Assembly (NCBI GenBank): GCA_947627975.1
Contig: CANQYB010000007.1
Coordinates: 1 to 44,310 of the forward strand
Length of the DNA stretch: 44,310 nt
Source of the DNA: an uncultured Bacilli bacterium
GTDB taxonomy: Bacteria; Bacillota_I; Bacilli_A; RF39; UBA660
Direction of reading: 5' to 3'
The notes under the pieces were generated by a model that was not told the origin of the DNA, did not search any database, and was given only the letters and a program-made list of their open reading frames with translations. The position numbers and the translations under genes were made by a program. Below, one piece after another: positions 6,887 through 38,283 of this stretch (the first letter of the stretch is position 1; each line of letters starts with the position of its first letter).

Positions 6887-7333
6887 ATGTTATTCGAAAA
6901 TAATAATTTTATTGATTATGATAATTTTGATGATTATAATTTAAATTTATTTGGATTAATCAAAGAAAATGATGAAAAGTTATATGATTTAAAAAATGGT
7001 TTTTTAAGAGGAAATATGTTTAAAGATATTTATGATCATTATAAAGAAAATATGATTTTAAATTTTATACCTCAAAATAATAAAGAGGAATTACTTTTAA
7101 AAATTTATGAATTAGATTTTGCTATTACAGATATTTCATTATATTTAGATATTCATAATGATCATAAAATATATGAGATTTTTAAAAATTATGTCAAAGA
7201 ATATAATAAAAAAGTTGAAGAATATGAAAAAAATTATGGTCCGCTTAATTTAAATTATAGTAATTATACAAATTATAAATGGCTAGAAAATCCATGGCCA
7301 TGGGATAGATCAGGAGGTAAATTCAATGTATAA
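6887..7333 (+). CDS. CotJA-CotJB fusion, spore coat type protein
   Basis: A 148-residue protein. Residues about 33-53 (YDLKNGFLRGNMFKDIYDHYK) recall the short conserved block of CotJA (a-L-x-NGT-L-F-P-x-LY). Residues about 66-148 are a clear CotJB domain: LKIYELDFAITDISLYLDIH (71-90), YGPLNLNY, and a terminal WLENPWPWDR motif. In Bacillus, CotJA, CotJB and CotJC are three separate proteins of the inner spore coat. Here the first two appear in one chain and CotJC follows, overlapping by eight bases. The start is the ATG at 6887, six bases after AGGAGG; the upstream TTG lies in the ribosome site. CotJB is confident; the CotJA part is inferred from one motif. Confidence 0.75.
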   Translation: MLFENNNFIDYDNFDDYNLNLFGLIKENDEKLYDLKNGFLRGNMFKDIYDHYKENMILNFIPQNNKEELLLKIYELDFAITDISLYLDIHNDHKIYEIFKNYVKEYNKKVEEYEKNYGPLNLNYSNYTNYKWLENPWPWDRSGGKFNV

Positions 7334-7889
7334 ATATATGAAAAAACTTAACTATCCAATAAATATTACCAAAAAAGATTTAAAAATGGCTAAATACATA
7401 ATAACTCAACTTGGAGGTTACGCAGGAGAATTAGGAGCTGCTTTAAGATATTTTTTACAAAAATTTACAATGCCAGATGAAAAAGGAAAAGCTCTTCTTA
7501 ATGATATAGCTTGTGAAGAGTTAGGTCACTGTGAAATGATTGCTACTATGTTCCATCAATTAACCCAAGGAGCTACAATAAAAGAATTAGAAGAAGCAGG
7601 TTTAGGATCATACTATGCTGATCATAAAAATGCTGTTTATCCTGTTGATGCATCTGGAAATTCATTTACTGTAGATTATTTTGCTTCTACAGGTGATGTT
7701 ATTACCGATTTATCTGAAGATATGGCTGCAGAACAAAAAGCTAGAACAGTTTATGAAAATTTAATAAATTTAGCCGAAGATGAAGCTGTAATTGGACCAT
7801 TATTATTTTTAAGACAAAGAGAAATTTCACATTTTAATAGATTCAGCGAATTATATGACTACTATATTGAAAAAATGACCAAAATATAA
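7326..7889 (+). CDS. cotJC: CotJC / manganese-catalase family protein
   Basis: A 187-residue four-helix-bundle protein of the CotJC-type manganese catalase family. The dimanganese ligands can be read off: Glu35, Glu65 and His68 (ExxH) in the first half, and Glu136, Glu166 and His169 (REISH) in the second, so the metal site is intact and hydrogen peroxide disproportionation is plausible. In Bacillus it is a spore coat component. In other Firmicutes similar proteins serve in oxidative defence, which would suit an anaerobe. The ATG at 7326 is seven bases from GGAGGT and overlaps the CotJAB stop. A terminator closes the operon. Confidence 0.88.
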   Translation: MYKYMKKLNYPINITKKDLKMAKYIITQLGGYAGELGAALRYFLQKFTMPDEKGKALLNDIACEELGHCEMIATMFHQLTQGATIKELEEAGLGSYYADHKNAVYPVDASGNSFTVDYFASTGDVITDLSEDMAAEQKARTVYENLINLAEDEAVIGPLLFLRQREISHFNRFSELYDYYIEKMTKI

Positions 7890-23566: not shown

Positions 23567-23694
23567 ATTTGTAATTTTTCTCCTTTCGTCTATATCTAGT
23601 ATAGACTCGCTCCATGCAAATTACCTGATGCTAGTTTTTATTATTCAACTTTACCTAGCGTATCAGCAACCTCGCACTTCAAAGCAGTCATACA
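23567..23694 (-). promoter_or_regulatory. Structured 5' leader of the S10 operon
   Basis: About 128 bases, visibly richer in GC than surrounding intergenic DNA, separate the promoter from rpsJ. One helix pairs 23655-23665 with 23626-23634 (TGAT-AC-GCTAG with CTAGCATCA). A second hairpin, GTCTATA/TATAGAC with a five-base loop, lies at 23588-23606 just ahead of the AGGAG site. The downstream half closely resembles the leader sequence I associate with rpsJ in other Firmicutes. A role in ribosomal-protein feedback is inferred. Confidence 0.65.
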
Positions 23695-25561: not shown

Positions 25562-26128
25562 TTACCCCTTTATCTTAATTGTACTAATACTCTTATAATT
25601 TTTTCTTAAAATTTGAATATATAAAACATCTAGTAAAATATTTATTATTGTAAATACCCCAACAGTTTGAGTTTTAAAAAATAAATAATCAAATGGATAT
25701 ATAAATATTGAAATTGAAAGTGCTATTGATAAAATCATATTAATAATCGTTATTAATTTAAGTTGTTTAGTTGCTTTATTATCGTATAAAGGTATTGATA
25801 ACTTATATAATGCAGTAACAATAAAGTAAACTCCAACAAGAATTATTAAATCTATTTTTGTAGTATTTACATTTACAATTGTAAAAATACCTAAAATAGC
25901 AATTAAAATAGTTAAAAATAAATCTAACTTAAAAATTGAAAATATTTTCTTCCTTTGTATAGTATATGCGTATAAAGTAACAACACTTAAAATAATTAAC
26001 GAAAATCCATATAAATATGATAATAGAGCTTCAGAAATTCCCTTAATAAATATGGCAAAAATAGCAATAATTAGTAAAGGTAACATTGCTCCTAATTTTA
26101 AATTTAAAATCCTTTTGTATTCTTTCAT
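25562..26128 (-). CDS. Integral membrane protein, HdeD/DUF308-like
   Basis: A 188-residue protein with about six transmembrane helices in three pairs and very short loops. The pairing and lengths recall HdeD/DUF308 membrane proteins, but there is no decisive motif. The ATG at 26126-26128 is set by AGGTG; the longer frame upstream lacks a ribosome site. It ends four bases before the eno start, so eno may be cotranscribed with it. Function is unknown. Confidence 0.55.
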   Translation of the reverse strand: MKEYKRILNLKLGAMLPLLIIAIFAIFIKGISEALLSYLYGFSLIILSVVTLYAYTIQRKKIFSIFKLDLFLTILIAILGIFTIVNVNTTKIDLIILVGVYFIVTALYKLSIPLYDNKATKQLKLITIINMILSIALSISIFIYPFDYLFFKTQTVGVFTIINILLDVLYIQILRKNYKSISTIKIKG

Positions 26129-35700: not shown

Positions 35701-36100
35701 TGTTTATGTTGCTTTAGTAAGTTTAAAAGCTAATTTCAACCAAACGTTAAATGCTTTTAAAGAAGCTATTAACCATAATGGACCTTCCATAATTATTGCT
35801 TATAGTCCTTGTATAGAAATGGGAATTAAAGGAGGTCTTTCCAATTCTATTGATGAAGAAAAACTGGCTGTTGAATGTGGATATATTCAACTTAAACGAT
35901 ATGATCCTAAAACTAACCAATTAACAATAGATTCCAAAGAACCAAATTACGATTTATACGACCAATTTTTAGATAATGAAATTCGTTATTCATCTTTAAA
36001 ATTAAAAGATGAAAATTACGCCAAAAATATATTAAATATAAATAAATTAAATGCTAAAAAAAGAAATGATTATTATATTAATCTTTCTAAGAAAAATTAA
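32732..36100 (+). CDS. nifJ: Pyruvate:ferredoxin oxidoreductase, single-chain
   Basis: A 1122-residue enzyme: pyruvate + CoA + oxidised ferredoxin to acetyl-CoA + CO2. All domains are in order: the N-terminal domain with SIYPITPASPM (about 20-30) and EMQSEAGAAAAMHGA, the gamma domain with IYGYGSDGMV (about 420), an EKR segment, two ferredoxin-type clusters (CIQCMQCSLVCP about 671-682 and CTNCGLCIKTCP about 722-733), CAGCGE near 785 for the proximal cluster, and the thiamine diphosphate site GGDGWAYDIG (about 915-924) with YSNTGGQASKSS. It is the anaerobic pyruvate route, with the ferredoxin at 5452 as a likely acceptor. Confidence 0.97.
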   Translation: MKKIMDGNEFCSKIAYKFSNICSIYPITPASPMASWTDKLANLKTQNYFNSSTKIIEMQSEAGAAAAMHGALLTGSLTSTFTSSQGLLLMIPEMYKMAGEMLPGVIHVAARSLSTHALSIFGDHQDIYATRQTGFCMIASSNVFQTGIMSAVCHLSAISTSLPFLHFFDGFRTSHELNTIEYDEDDYYSYLKKLIDYKSLNAYKKRCLNTSKMIQSGVCENEDIYFQVAESKNKDYEKAADIVANYMKKVSNYFNEDFKPFNYYGKSDATNVIVAMGSVCDTIKQVIKDLNNEGKKVGLVEVHLYRPFSKKYLNDIIPKTVKNIAVLDRTKEQGSVGEPLYLDVLASVSKEINVVGGRYGLSSKNTTPADIKSIFSMLEKKLQNNFTISIYDDVTNLSLPTEKYFPNLRTTELKIYGYGSDGMVSASKDLLKIESEINDYYVQGYFQYDSKKSGGVTLSHLRISDKKIDAPYYVTDPSIISVSRASYLNKYNIVEELCFNGNLLINTQMNETELDKYLNNDVKKIIKERDINLYLIDASKIAYENNLNNKISIIMEACILKILKVMNFNNILIKNIEEKFKNKGNDIINFNINAFKKGLNVLKKINNNFNIKEEDKKYQRKNIFDMIENRCGDLLKVSDVLCLKKGQVIGGLSKLEKRDLYDNFPVWNKEKCIQCMQCSLVCPHAVIRPFVVDNKNKYAPNGKDLLTDKNQKFIIGISKKDCTNCGLCIKTCPTHALSMGNVYDDEMINYLFNNYENKKIYDKYTIKGSQMLKPKFEFAPSCAGCGETAYIKLLTQLLQDRLIIANATGCSSIYGGSIPCTPYSVSWATSLFEDNAEFGLGMKISRNNIRKRIENIMKKNMDKVDETTQKLFKLWIENQNDFEITKKIKSEISNYNIPKELEDLKDFLEAESIWCIGGDGWAYDIGFSGIDHVLSSNENINILILDTEVYSNTGGQASKSSHQGQVCEFTNLGKTTPKKDLFKISMCYDNVYVALVSLKANFNQTLNAFKEAINHNGPSIIIAYSPCIEMGIKGGLSNSIDEEKLAVECGYIQLKRYDPKTNQLTIDSKEPNYDLYDQFLDNEIRYSSLKLKDENYAKNILNINKLNAKKRNDYYINLSKKN

Positions 36101-36112
36101 AAAAAATAAAAT

Positions 36113-36150
36113 AAAAAAACGAGACCGAATCTTTGAAAGATTTCGGTCTC
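36113..36150 (-). terminator. Terminator of the small RNA
   Basis: A 12-bp-class stem with GAGACCGAA and TTCGGTCTC arms (36121-36150) is followed on the minus strand by G and seven T residues, then more T-rich DNA. On the plus strand the bases after the hairpin (TTAAAAGA) are a poor T-run, so the signal is oriented for the minus strand. It may also slow plus-strand read-through from nifJ. Confidence 0.85.
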
Positions 36151-36217
36151 TTAAAAGAATAAAAAGGGGTTGGCTAGTGTGATACTAGCACCAATTCGCC
36201 AATAAGTGAATTGGTAT
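36113..36217 (-). ncRNA. Small RNA gene between nifJ and recG, own promoter and terminator
   Basis: On the strand opposite nifJ and recG a consensus promoter is followed by about 105 bases that end in a strong intrinsic terminator. The predicted RNA has hairpin 1 (ACCAATTC/GAATTGGT, 36190-36215), hairpin 2 directly stacked on it (GCTAGT/ACTAGC, 36173-36189), an unpaired pyrimidine stretch CCAACCCCTTTTTATTC, and terminator hairpin 3. No reading frame with a ribosome site is seen. The C-rich unpaired stretch is typical of trans-acting Firmicutes small RNAs that mask Shine-Dalgarno sequences. The gene is inferred from these signals; I do not recognise the RNA family. Confidence 0.7.
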
Positions 36218-36222
36218 GACAT

Positions 36223-36251
36223 ATACTAATAGAAAAGTTCTTTTTTGTCAA
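36223..36251 (-). promoter_or_regulatory. Promoter of the small RNA
   Basis: TTGACA (36246-36251), a perfect -35 box, and TAGTAT (36223-36228) are 17 bases apart on the minus strand. It faces away from recG, and no protein gene lies downstream of it on that strand, only the hairpin series and the terminator. Confidence 0.8.
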
Positions 36252-36294
36252 CACTTTTTTTAAAAAAATTTAAAAAAAATTTGAGGTGAAATAA

Positions 36295-38283
36295 ATGCTA
36301 TTAAAAGATATTAAAAATATTGGCCCCAAAAATGAAAAATTGCTTAATCAATTAAACATATATAATTTTAATGATTTATTAACTTACTACCCTTACAAAT
36401 ATCAAATATTACAAATCACCCCATTAAGTGAAGATAATATTTGTATTATAAATGCTAAAGTTATGACTACACCGATTATTAGATATATTAAAAAAAATTT
36501 AAATAGCATTAAATTTAAAATAAGTTACAAATCATTAATTATAGATGTCATAATTTTTAATCGAGCATTTTTAAAAAATAATTTAAAAATTTCAAACGAT
36601 ATTTTATTAATTGGTAAATATAATAAACATAAAAATCAATTTGTTGCAAATGATATTAAATTTTATAATTTAAATAAAACAGAATTAATAGCTAAATATC
36701 ATTTAATTAGAGGACTTAAAAACACAACTTTAAAAAAAATTATTGAAAATGCTTTAAAAGAAAATTTTACCTTAACAGACTTTATCCCACAAAATTATAA
36801 TGACAAATATAATTTTATTGATAAAAATGATGCTATCAAATATATACATATTCCAAAAAATTTAGATGAAATAAAAAAAGCTAAACTTAAATTAATATAT
36901 GAAGAATTATTTATATTTTCTTTCAAAATTAATTATTTAAAAATGTTAAAAACTAAAGAAAATAATTCTTTAAAGAGAATAAATGTTGAAGATCAAATAA
37001 ATAAATTTATTAAAAAATTACCTTATGAATTAACAGATGATCAAATAAAATCAGTTAATGATATTTTAAACGATTTTAAAAATCCCAGAAGAATGAACAG
37101 ATTGCTTTTAGGTGATGTCGGTAGTGGAAAAACTATTGTTTCAGTAATTGCTTTATATGCAAATTATTTATCAAATTATCAAGGAGTATTAATGGCTCCA
37201 ACTGAAGTTTTGACTATCCAGCATTATACTAATATAAAAGAAATATTAAAAAAATATGATATTAGTATTGAAATACTTTCAGGAAGTATGACTAAAAAAG
37301 AAAAAGAAAATATTTTACAGAGATTAAAAAATAATGAAATAGATATAATTATCAGTACTCATTCCATTATTAGTGATAATGTTAAATTTAATAATTTAGG
37401 TTTGGTAATAACTGATGAACAACATAGATTTGGAGTAAATCAACGAAAAAATTTACAAAATAAAGGGCTTCATCCTGACGTACTTTATTTATCAGCTACA
37501 CCAATACCTAGAACTTATGCTCTTACTTTATATGGAGACATGGATATTTCAATAATTAAAACTAAACCAAAAAATAGAATTCCTGTTAAAACCTATTTTA
37601 AATCTGAAAAACAAATAAAAGAAGTTTTGTTAAAAATATATGAAAACATAAAAAATCAACATCAAATTTATGTTGTATCTCCCGCAATTGATAGTGAAGA
37701 TAATGATGAATTAAATGATGTTAAAAAATTAAAAGAAAAATTTACTAAAGCCTTTCAAAACAAAATAAGAATTGAAATTCTACATAGCAAAATAAAAGCT
37801 AAAGAAAAAGAAGCAATTATGAATGATTTTAAACAAAATAAAATCCAAATATTAATATCTACAACAGTAATTGAAGTAGGAATTGATAATCCTAATGCTA
37901 CAATGATGATTATATTTAACGCTGAAAGATTTGGATTAGCTACTTTGCATCAACTTAGAGGTCGAGTTGGAAGAGGAAATTTTGAATCTAGTTGTTATTT
38001 AATTTCCAATAAAGAAACGGAAAGATTAAAAATAATGACTGAAAGTAATGATGGATTTTATATTGCGGAAAAAGATTATGAACTTCGTGGAGAAGGAGAT
38101 ATATTTGGGGAAAAACAAAGTGGAGATATGGTATTTAAATTAGCCGACTTAAAAAGGGATTATAAAATATTATTACAAGCCAAAAAAGATAGTCAAGATT
38201 TTATTGAAAAAAATATTGATAATAATTTTAAATATTATTATAATTATCAAAAAATAATAAAAGAAATAAATTTTTTAAATTAA
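36295..38283 (+). CDS. recG: ATP-dependent DNA helicase RecG
   Basis: A 662-residue helicase that remodels stalled replication forks and recombination intermediates. An N-terminal wedge (OB) domain spans about residues 55-150. Helicase motifs follow: GDVGSGKT (about 273-280), TDEQHRFG (about 372-379), SATPIPRT (about 400-407), ISTTVIEVGIDNPNA (about 522-536) and LRGRVGRG. The length is close to the Firmicutes norm of about 680. The ATG follows GAGGTGA. A 9-bp inverted repeat (TTAACATAA at 38280-38288 with 38308-38316) follows the stop but lacks a T-run. Confidence 0.97.
   Translation: MLLKDIKNIGPKNEKLLNQLNIYNFNDLLTYYPYKYQILQITPLSEDNICIINAKVMTTPIIRYIKKNLNSIKFKISYKSLIIDVIIFNRAFLKNNLKISNDILLIGKYNKHKNQFVANDIKFYNLNKTELIAKYHLIRGLKNTTLKKIIENALKENFTLTDFIPQNYNDKYNFIDKNDAIKYIHIPKNLDEIKKAKLKLIYEELFIFSFKINYLKMLKTKENNSLKRINVEDQINKFIKKLPYELTDDQIKSVNDILNDFKNPRRMNRLLLGDVGSGKTIVSVIALYANYLSNYQGVLMAPTEVLTIQHYTNIKEILKKYDISIEILSGSMTKKEKENILQRLKNNEIDIIISTHSIISDNVKFNNLGLVITDEQHRFGVNQRKNLQNKGLHPDVLYLSATPIPRTYALTLYGDMDISIIKTKPKNRIPVKTYFKSEKQIKEVLLKIYENIKNQHQIYVVSPAIDSEDNDELNDVKKLKEKFTKAFQNKIRIEILHSKIKAKEKEAIMNDFKQNKIQILISTTVIEVGIDNPNATMMIIFNAERFGLATLHQLRGRVGRGNFESSCYLISNKETERLKIMTESNDGFYIAEKDYELRGEGDIFGEKQSGDMVFKLADLKRDYKILLQAKKDSQDFIEKNIDNNFKYYYNYQKIIKEINFLN

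Follow-up and report, generated by a model that had tools for sequence, protein, structure and literature searches.

A minus-strand locus between nifJ and recG in the genome of an uncultured Bacilli bacterium is, on the strength of comparative sequence analysis, a real, undescribed, stand-alone small-RNA gene that is ancient within one bacterial family. This gene, referred to here as RNA1, is confined to that family of uncultured Bacilli as far as genome comparison reaches, and its core sequence, by the same measure, is under near-absolute constraint. RNA1 is probably an important control molecule. An initial annotation of the window, the whole 44,310-nucleotide stretch of DNA analysed here, had proposed an undescribed small-RNA gene of about 105 nt at this place, and its promoter, hairpins and terminator proved to be conserved in relatives and to have no counterpart among Rfam families. 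A lack of such conservation had been named there as a refuting result, and the proposal withstood this check.

Layout and conservation of RNA1

The signals read by the initial annotation are all present on the minus strand. They comprise a -35 box TTGACA (36251-36246) and a -10 box TAGTAT (36228-36223) separated by 17 bases, followed by a pair of adjoining hairpins, the single-stranded stretch CCAACCCCTTTTTATTC and a strong hairpin with a T7 tract, as found in the sequence and its predicted fold. The predicted transcript (36107-36217) would start near 36217-36215 and be about 105 nt long. It opens with hairpin 1 (ACCAATTC...GAATTGGT, 36190-36215) and hairpin 2 (GCTAGTATCACACTAGC, 36173-36189), the latter nearly invariant including its loop, and continues with the unpaired CAACCCCTTTTTATTC segment, where the invariant linker ACCCCTTTTTATTCTTT is located (36154-36170). 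The strong hairpin 3, which forms the stem of an intrinsic terminator (GAGACCGAAATC...GATTCGGTCTC, 36121-36150), comes next and is followed by GTTTTTTT within a T-rich tail (36099-36120). With a folding energy of -33.8 kcal/mol (z = -8.06), RNA1 is matched by none of 200 shuffled sequences, and the linker is 98% unpaired in the predicted ensemble (mean unpaired probability 0.98). Its terminator hairpin is missing from the list of a simple terminator scan. The signals serve neither flanking gene, as had been claimed, since nifJ (pyruvate:ferredoxin oxidoreductase) and recG, both assigned by Pfam, lie on the plus strand.

In DNA as AT-rich as this, promoter matches carry no significance by themselves: 18 were found in the window against 21.7 expected by chance, and conservation is therefore the real test of RNA1. 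Strong blastn matches came from 33 of 37 members of the family, whereas 23 genomes belonging to other families of the class gave none. A covariance model, which matches positions 36153-36220 of the window with 90 bits, gave strong matches in 35 of 38 family genomes of a class-wide sample and none that was convincing in 258 others. The exact 28-base core, consisting of hairpin 2 and part of the linker, is shared by 203 of 243 genomes of the family, representing 135 of 148 genera, and the reversed pattern used as a control has no match. Of 54 family genomes, 47 have the 17-base linker, and none of 341 others in the class does. At least 118 public species-genome stretches hold it, mostly metagenome-assembled genomes (MAGs) labelled Bacilli, Tenericutes or Mollicutes, among them Candidatus Pelethosoma. 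As the genomes are incomplete MAGs, completeness within the family stays below 100% and absences of RNA1 are soft.

Conservation across 128 distinct homologues is 99% in the columns of the core and linker, as compared with about 50% in the flanks. The promoter retains at least 9 of 12 consensus bases in 134 of 135 homologues, with a perfect TTGACA in 120, TAGTAT in 75 and a 17-base spacer in 129, and a terminator is present in 114 of 128 homologues and in none of 128 shuffled sequences. Stem 1, in which compensatory changes occur among relatives, covaries together with the base of stem 2, giving 9 doubly changed cells among 91 distinct sequences, a level reached by none of 500 shuffles; variation in stem 1 takes the form of U-A to A-U exchanges and wobble variants. 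Hairpin 2 is otherwise invariant and hence uninformative for covariation. Each host genome carries one main copy of the linker. RNA1 is usually directed away from recG, with nifJ past its end; synteny is kept on the side of recG in most genomes, and the neighbours differ in many.

None of the 4227 Rfam families matches RNA1 at its gathering score, and no plausible weak match was obtained. The window also contains an S10-Clostridia ribosomal protein leader on the minus strand at 23586-23690 (Rfam RF03136, 38.3 bits). Two loci depart from the single-gene arrangement. RNA1 is tandemly duplicated with two promoters in locus L053 (5042-5324), where the G loop of hairpin 3 is degraded in the second copy, and a second RNA with the same linker and another stem 2 (GCTAGTACTTAATACTAGC) is present at about 6006-6069 of L212 (G009:C25), a candidate paralogue or relic.

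Candidate targets and viral copies of the linker

The initial annotation had named the ribosome site of eno (minus strand, 25564-25571) as a possible target of the linker, on the grounds that unpaired C-rich stretches of small RNAs often cover G-rich ribosome sites in Firmicutes. The 8-base match exists; eno as a conserved target was rejected, as the AAAGGGG site occurs in only 2 of the 19 family genomes examined, namely the window's own and that of a genus-mate (G001). The remaining 17 have an ordinary, non-GGGG site at eno together with an invariant RNA1. On a broader scale, many genes of the family have AAAAAGGGG as their ribosome site, in excess of the reversed control, and extended complements of the linker show only a mild genome-wide excess over the same type of control. 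Within a partial target sampling, the genes with AAAAAGGGG-ATG shared no recurring orthologue and no common family. Within the genome of the window, the strongest match falls on a gene for a 138-aa membrane protein (G000:C8:14556, -18.3 kcal/mol), a value that 16 of 500 shuffles equal.

The rsmH coding sequence contains a stretch complementary to the RNA1 linker, at 20/20 in G006 (L315) and 17/20 in G005 (L296), with close complements in several other genomes (L307, L304) and over-use of the AGG codon at the site (8 of 9, compared with about 14%). The window's own rsmH does not contain the complement, two genomes that have no RNA1 (G017, G024) do, and for this reason rsmH mRNA is regarded as a lead only. 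Hfq (PF17209) was detected in none of 31 genomes including the window's own, with E. coli and B. subtilis detected as controls.

Copies of the linker are also carried by viruses. The 17-mer was found in 46 viral contigs, as compared with 19 for its reversed and 18 for its permuted version. Under strict criteria (AT-rich, intergenic, a hairpin directly before the linker and a -10 box), 17 of the 46 viral loci and none of 36 controls qualified; as the search used exact strings, conservation inside the viral set arises partly by construction, which leaves the comparison with controls unaffected. Several viral loci (L343, L363, L367, L376) retain the GCTAGTATCAC hairpin of RNA1, and the same linker recurs in viral small-RNA-like loci whose hairpins and terminators otherwise differ. 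The exact hairpin 2 plus linker is found in two related viral contigs and in a prophage of family member G005, in all three after a tRNA-like sequence and before the terminase genes. In L376, a ROOL RNA (7168-7759, 170 bits) lies about 390 nt downstream of the RNA1-like hairpin and linker, and other viral linker loci are near tRNA genes. Annotated phage and plasmid records gave no match to the linker. Apart from the G005 prophage, the hosts of these viral contigs are inferred to belong to the same family as RNA1, the linker being exclusive to it.

Small-RNA-like genes with a TATAAT box, a short hairpin, ACCCCTTTTTATTCTTT and a terminator are present in the viral contigs L344, L346, L354, L356, L366, L370, L372, L378 and L382. 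Several of their terminator loops resemble the complement of a ribosome site plus AUG; against phage ribosome sites they give matches of only 10-13 bases, except for two longer ones in L356 and L382. The G005 prophage encodes a phage minor capsid protein 2 with a C-terminal Ntox50 domain (L211, 13117-14670).

The strongest rival to a linker that pairs with mRNAs takes up these viral copies. It is possible, at roughly a third of our confidence, that hairpin 2 and ACCCCUUUUUAUUCUUU form the binding site of one dedicated partner, either an RNA-binding protein or a specific RNA, rather than an mRNA seed, and that phages hijack or titrate this partner; any choice of target would then reside in the variable loop of hairpin 3. 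The invariance of the linker over 135 genera, its single main copy per host genome, its recurrence in viral small-RNA-like loci with different hairpins and terminators, and the lack of a recurring mRNA target all agree with such a partner. However, C-rich unpaired segments in small RNAs of Firmicutes are known contact sites for mRNAs and other small RNAs (PMC8216469), and the sampling of targets was partial.

The hairpin 3 loop and a second small RNA

About three quarters of relatives have UCAGGGGG as the loop of hairpin 3, a sequence complementary to the invariant CCCCCUGA of a second small RNA, referred to as RNA2. CAGGGG is present in this loop in 104 of 136 RNA1 homologues; the window's copy is among the 32 without it, and that of a genus-mate (L002) among those with it. 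Outside RNA1, the rare 8-mer TCAGGGGG was counted 52 times in 964 kb of sequence around such loci, nearly always antisense to RNA2-like CCCCCTGA sites. Like RNA1, RNA2 is an undescribed small-RNA gene, with a promoter, two hairpins, a linker CAACCAAAACCCCCUGAA and a terminator. Its first hairpin shows compensatory change in all seven pairs, its linker ACCCCCUGA is invariant, and the loci scanned have no Rfam match to it. RNA2 was found in 28 of 60 genomes searched, all from the family of the window's genome, and typically lies beyond recG as seen from RNA1, at a distance of 2-4 kb and on the strand of recG. In the window the next gene begins 57 bases after recG, and the RNA2 of this genome is on another contig (G000:C38:17-157; L154, L216). 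Further RNA2 loci include L143, L082, L047 and L054.

The predicted RNA1-RNA2 duplex has an energy of -17 to -27 kcal/mol with the G loop and of -12 kcal/mol or weaker without it. Eleven RNA1 homologues keep the CAGGGGG hairpin in the absence of a T-tract, which argues that hairpin 3 is selected for more than termination. RNA2 also persists in genomes whose RNA1 has no G loop, and the contact between the two small RNAs is therefore dispensable rather than obligatory.

The G-rich loop could instead pair with the CCCCU of RNA1's own linker, forming a pseudoknot that hides the linker, and five pairs (CCCCU/AGGGG) can be read from the alignment in most relatives. We consider this improbable: the conserved UCA before GGGGG matches CCCCCUGA of RNA2, for up to 8-9 pairs, and not the linker, which continues with UUUUU, and a G-rich loop of this kind is missing from the copy in the window.

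RNA2 resembles a place where mobile elements integrate. In L215 (G004:C3, 2693-16042) duplicated CCCCCTGAAG sites flank an element with a tyrosine integrase gene; CCCCCTGAA of RNA2, with a hairpin after it, is duplicated 1-13 kb downstream in L215, L039, L068, L076 and L098, and RNA2 3' ends are exchanged between genomes. The conserved core of RNA1 might likewise be taken for a phage or integrative-element attachment site and no functional RNA at all, given its presence in viral contigs and the resemblance of the RNA2 3' end to such a site, with its duplicated CCCCCTGAAG and tyrosine integrase in G004. This very unlikely explanation is largely refuted and was rejected for RNA1: in the G005 prophage and the two viral contigs the core precedes the terminase genes and is not next to an integrase, the host gene conserves its promoter, both stems and terminator, and its recG side keeps synteny in most genomes. 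Least probable of all is the reading of RNA1 as a small ORF, or as a leader, attenuator or terminator acting in cis on recG or nifJ. In many genomes it does occupy the place right before recG and after nifJ, but its signals run opposite to both genes and many homologues have other neighbours. A small protein was rejected because no reading frame is conserved: an ATG is present in just 49 of 128 homologues, and the length of hairpin 1 changes by single bases.

Proposed mode of action and its meaning

On balance, we regard RNA1 as an Hfq-independent base-pairing small RNA with an invariant contact site, a mechanism that we infer with about even confidence. About one half of our confidence goes to RNA-RNA pairing by the linker and one third to a dedicated partner imitated by phages; both readings rest on the same facts. 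In the base-pairing model, a vegetative promoter of its own, divergent from recG, would produce a structured non-coding RNA of about 105 nt that acts in trans without Hfq. Hairpin 2 would present the invariant linker as the contact surface, and this linker would most likely pair with G-rich mRNA sites. A second contact would be made in most relatives by the hairpin 3 loop, through pairing with the CCCCCUGA seed of RNA2, and RNA1 could then combine the role of a regulator with that of a sponge or partner of RNA2. The window's genome has lost this second site and kept RNA2, so that only the linker function could remain there. Against the base-pairing model stands the fact that no mRNA target recurs across genomes. 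The exactness of the linker is also unusual for a multi-target seed and fits a dedicated protein or RNA partner as well.

Several known small RNAs offer parallels, and by analogy RNA1 may work as they do; membership in any of these groups is not claimed. RsaI (RsaOG) of S. aureus is described as contacting mRNAs through a C-rich region and C-rich small RNAs through G-rich regions, and RosA is a confirmed sponge RNA in B. subtilis (PMC8216469). Like RsaI, most RNA1 homologues combine a C-rich linker with a G-rich loop complementary to a C-rich small RNA. Unlike RsaI and RosA, RNA1 has no sequence family match in Rfam and carries its G-rich site as the loop of its terminator, present in most relatives (104/136) but not in the window's own copy. 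The streptococcal csRNAs consist of a stem-loop, an unpaired region and a terminator stem-loop, with a short conserved stretch after the first stem-loop in virtually all of them (PMC3091779), a layout that RNA1 shares together with the conserved stretch. However, the unpaired regions of csRNAs match the Shine-Dalgarno sequence plus AUG, whereas the RNA1 linker is a GGGG-type complement and RNA1 has one main copy per genome. Direct reading of 36223-36300 also showed that the CiaR repeat TTTAAG-N5-TTTAAG, the mark of csRNA promoters, is absent there. With RoxS/RsaE and FsrA (PMC8216469), RNA1 has in common an unpaired C-rich contact region and an intergenic gene with its own promoter and terminator; it differs from them in its lack of an Rfam covariance match, its other hairpins and its restriction to a single family of uncultured Bacilli. 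ROOL RNA and tRNAs are found in phage RNA islands (PMC12286853), and the RNA1-like module similarly lies near ROOL in L376 and near tRNA genes elsewhere. In contrast to the large, ornate RNAs of such islands, RNA1 is a small host chromosomal gene.

For this large, uncultured family of gut Bacilli with reduced genomes, no description of regulatory RNA was found in Rfam or in the literature searched, and the motif may be present unnamed in large candidate lists (e.g., PMC8040213). The retention of an exact 28-nt sequence in about 135 genera points to a central and probably indispensable partner, and RNA2 and the viral linker copies provide two handles for finding it. Interplay between small RNAs, and between host and phage RNAs, in bacteria without Hfq thereby becomes testable by sequence. 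More speculatively, and in our view rather doubtful, the hairpin 2-linker module may be a family-specific RNA 'socket' for a dedicated partner, which phage copies capture or imitate and which the host couples to the second small RNA through a kissing loop. If true, host and phage would be competing for a conserved RNA module, and this in bacteria without Hfq.
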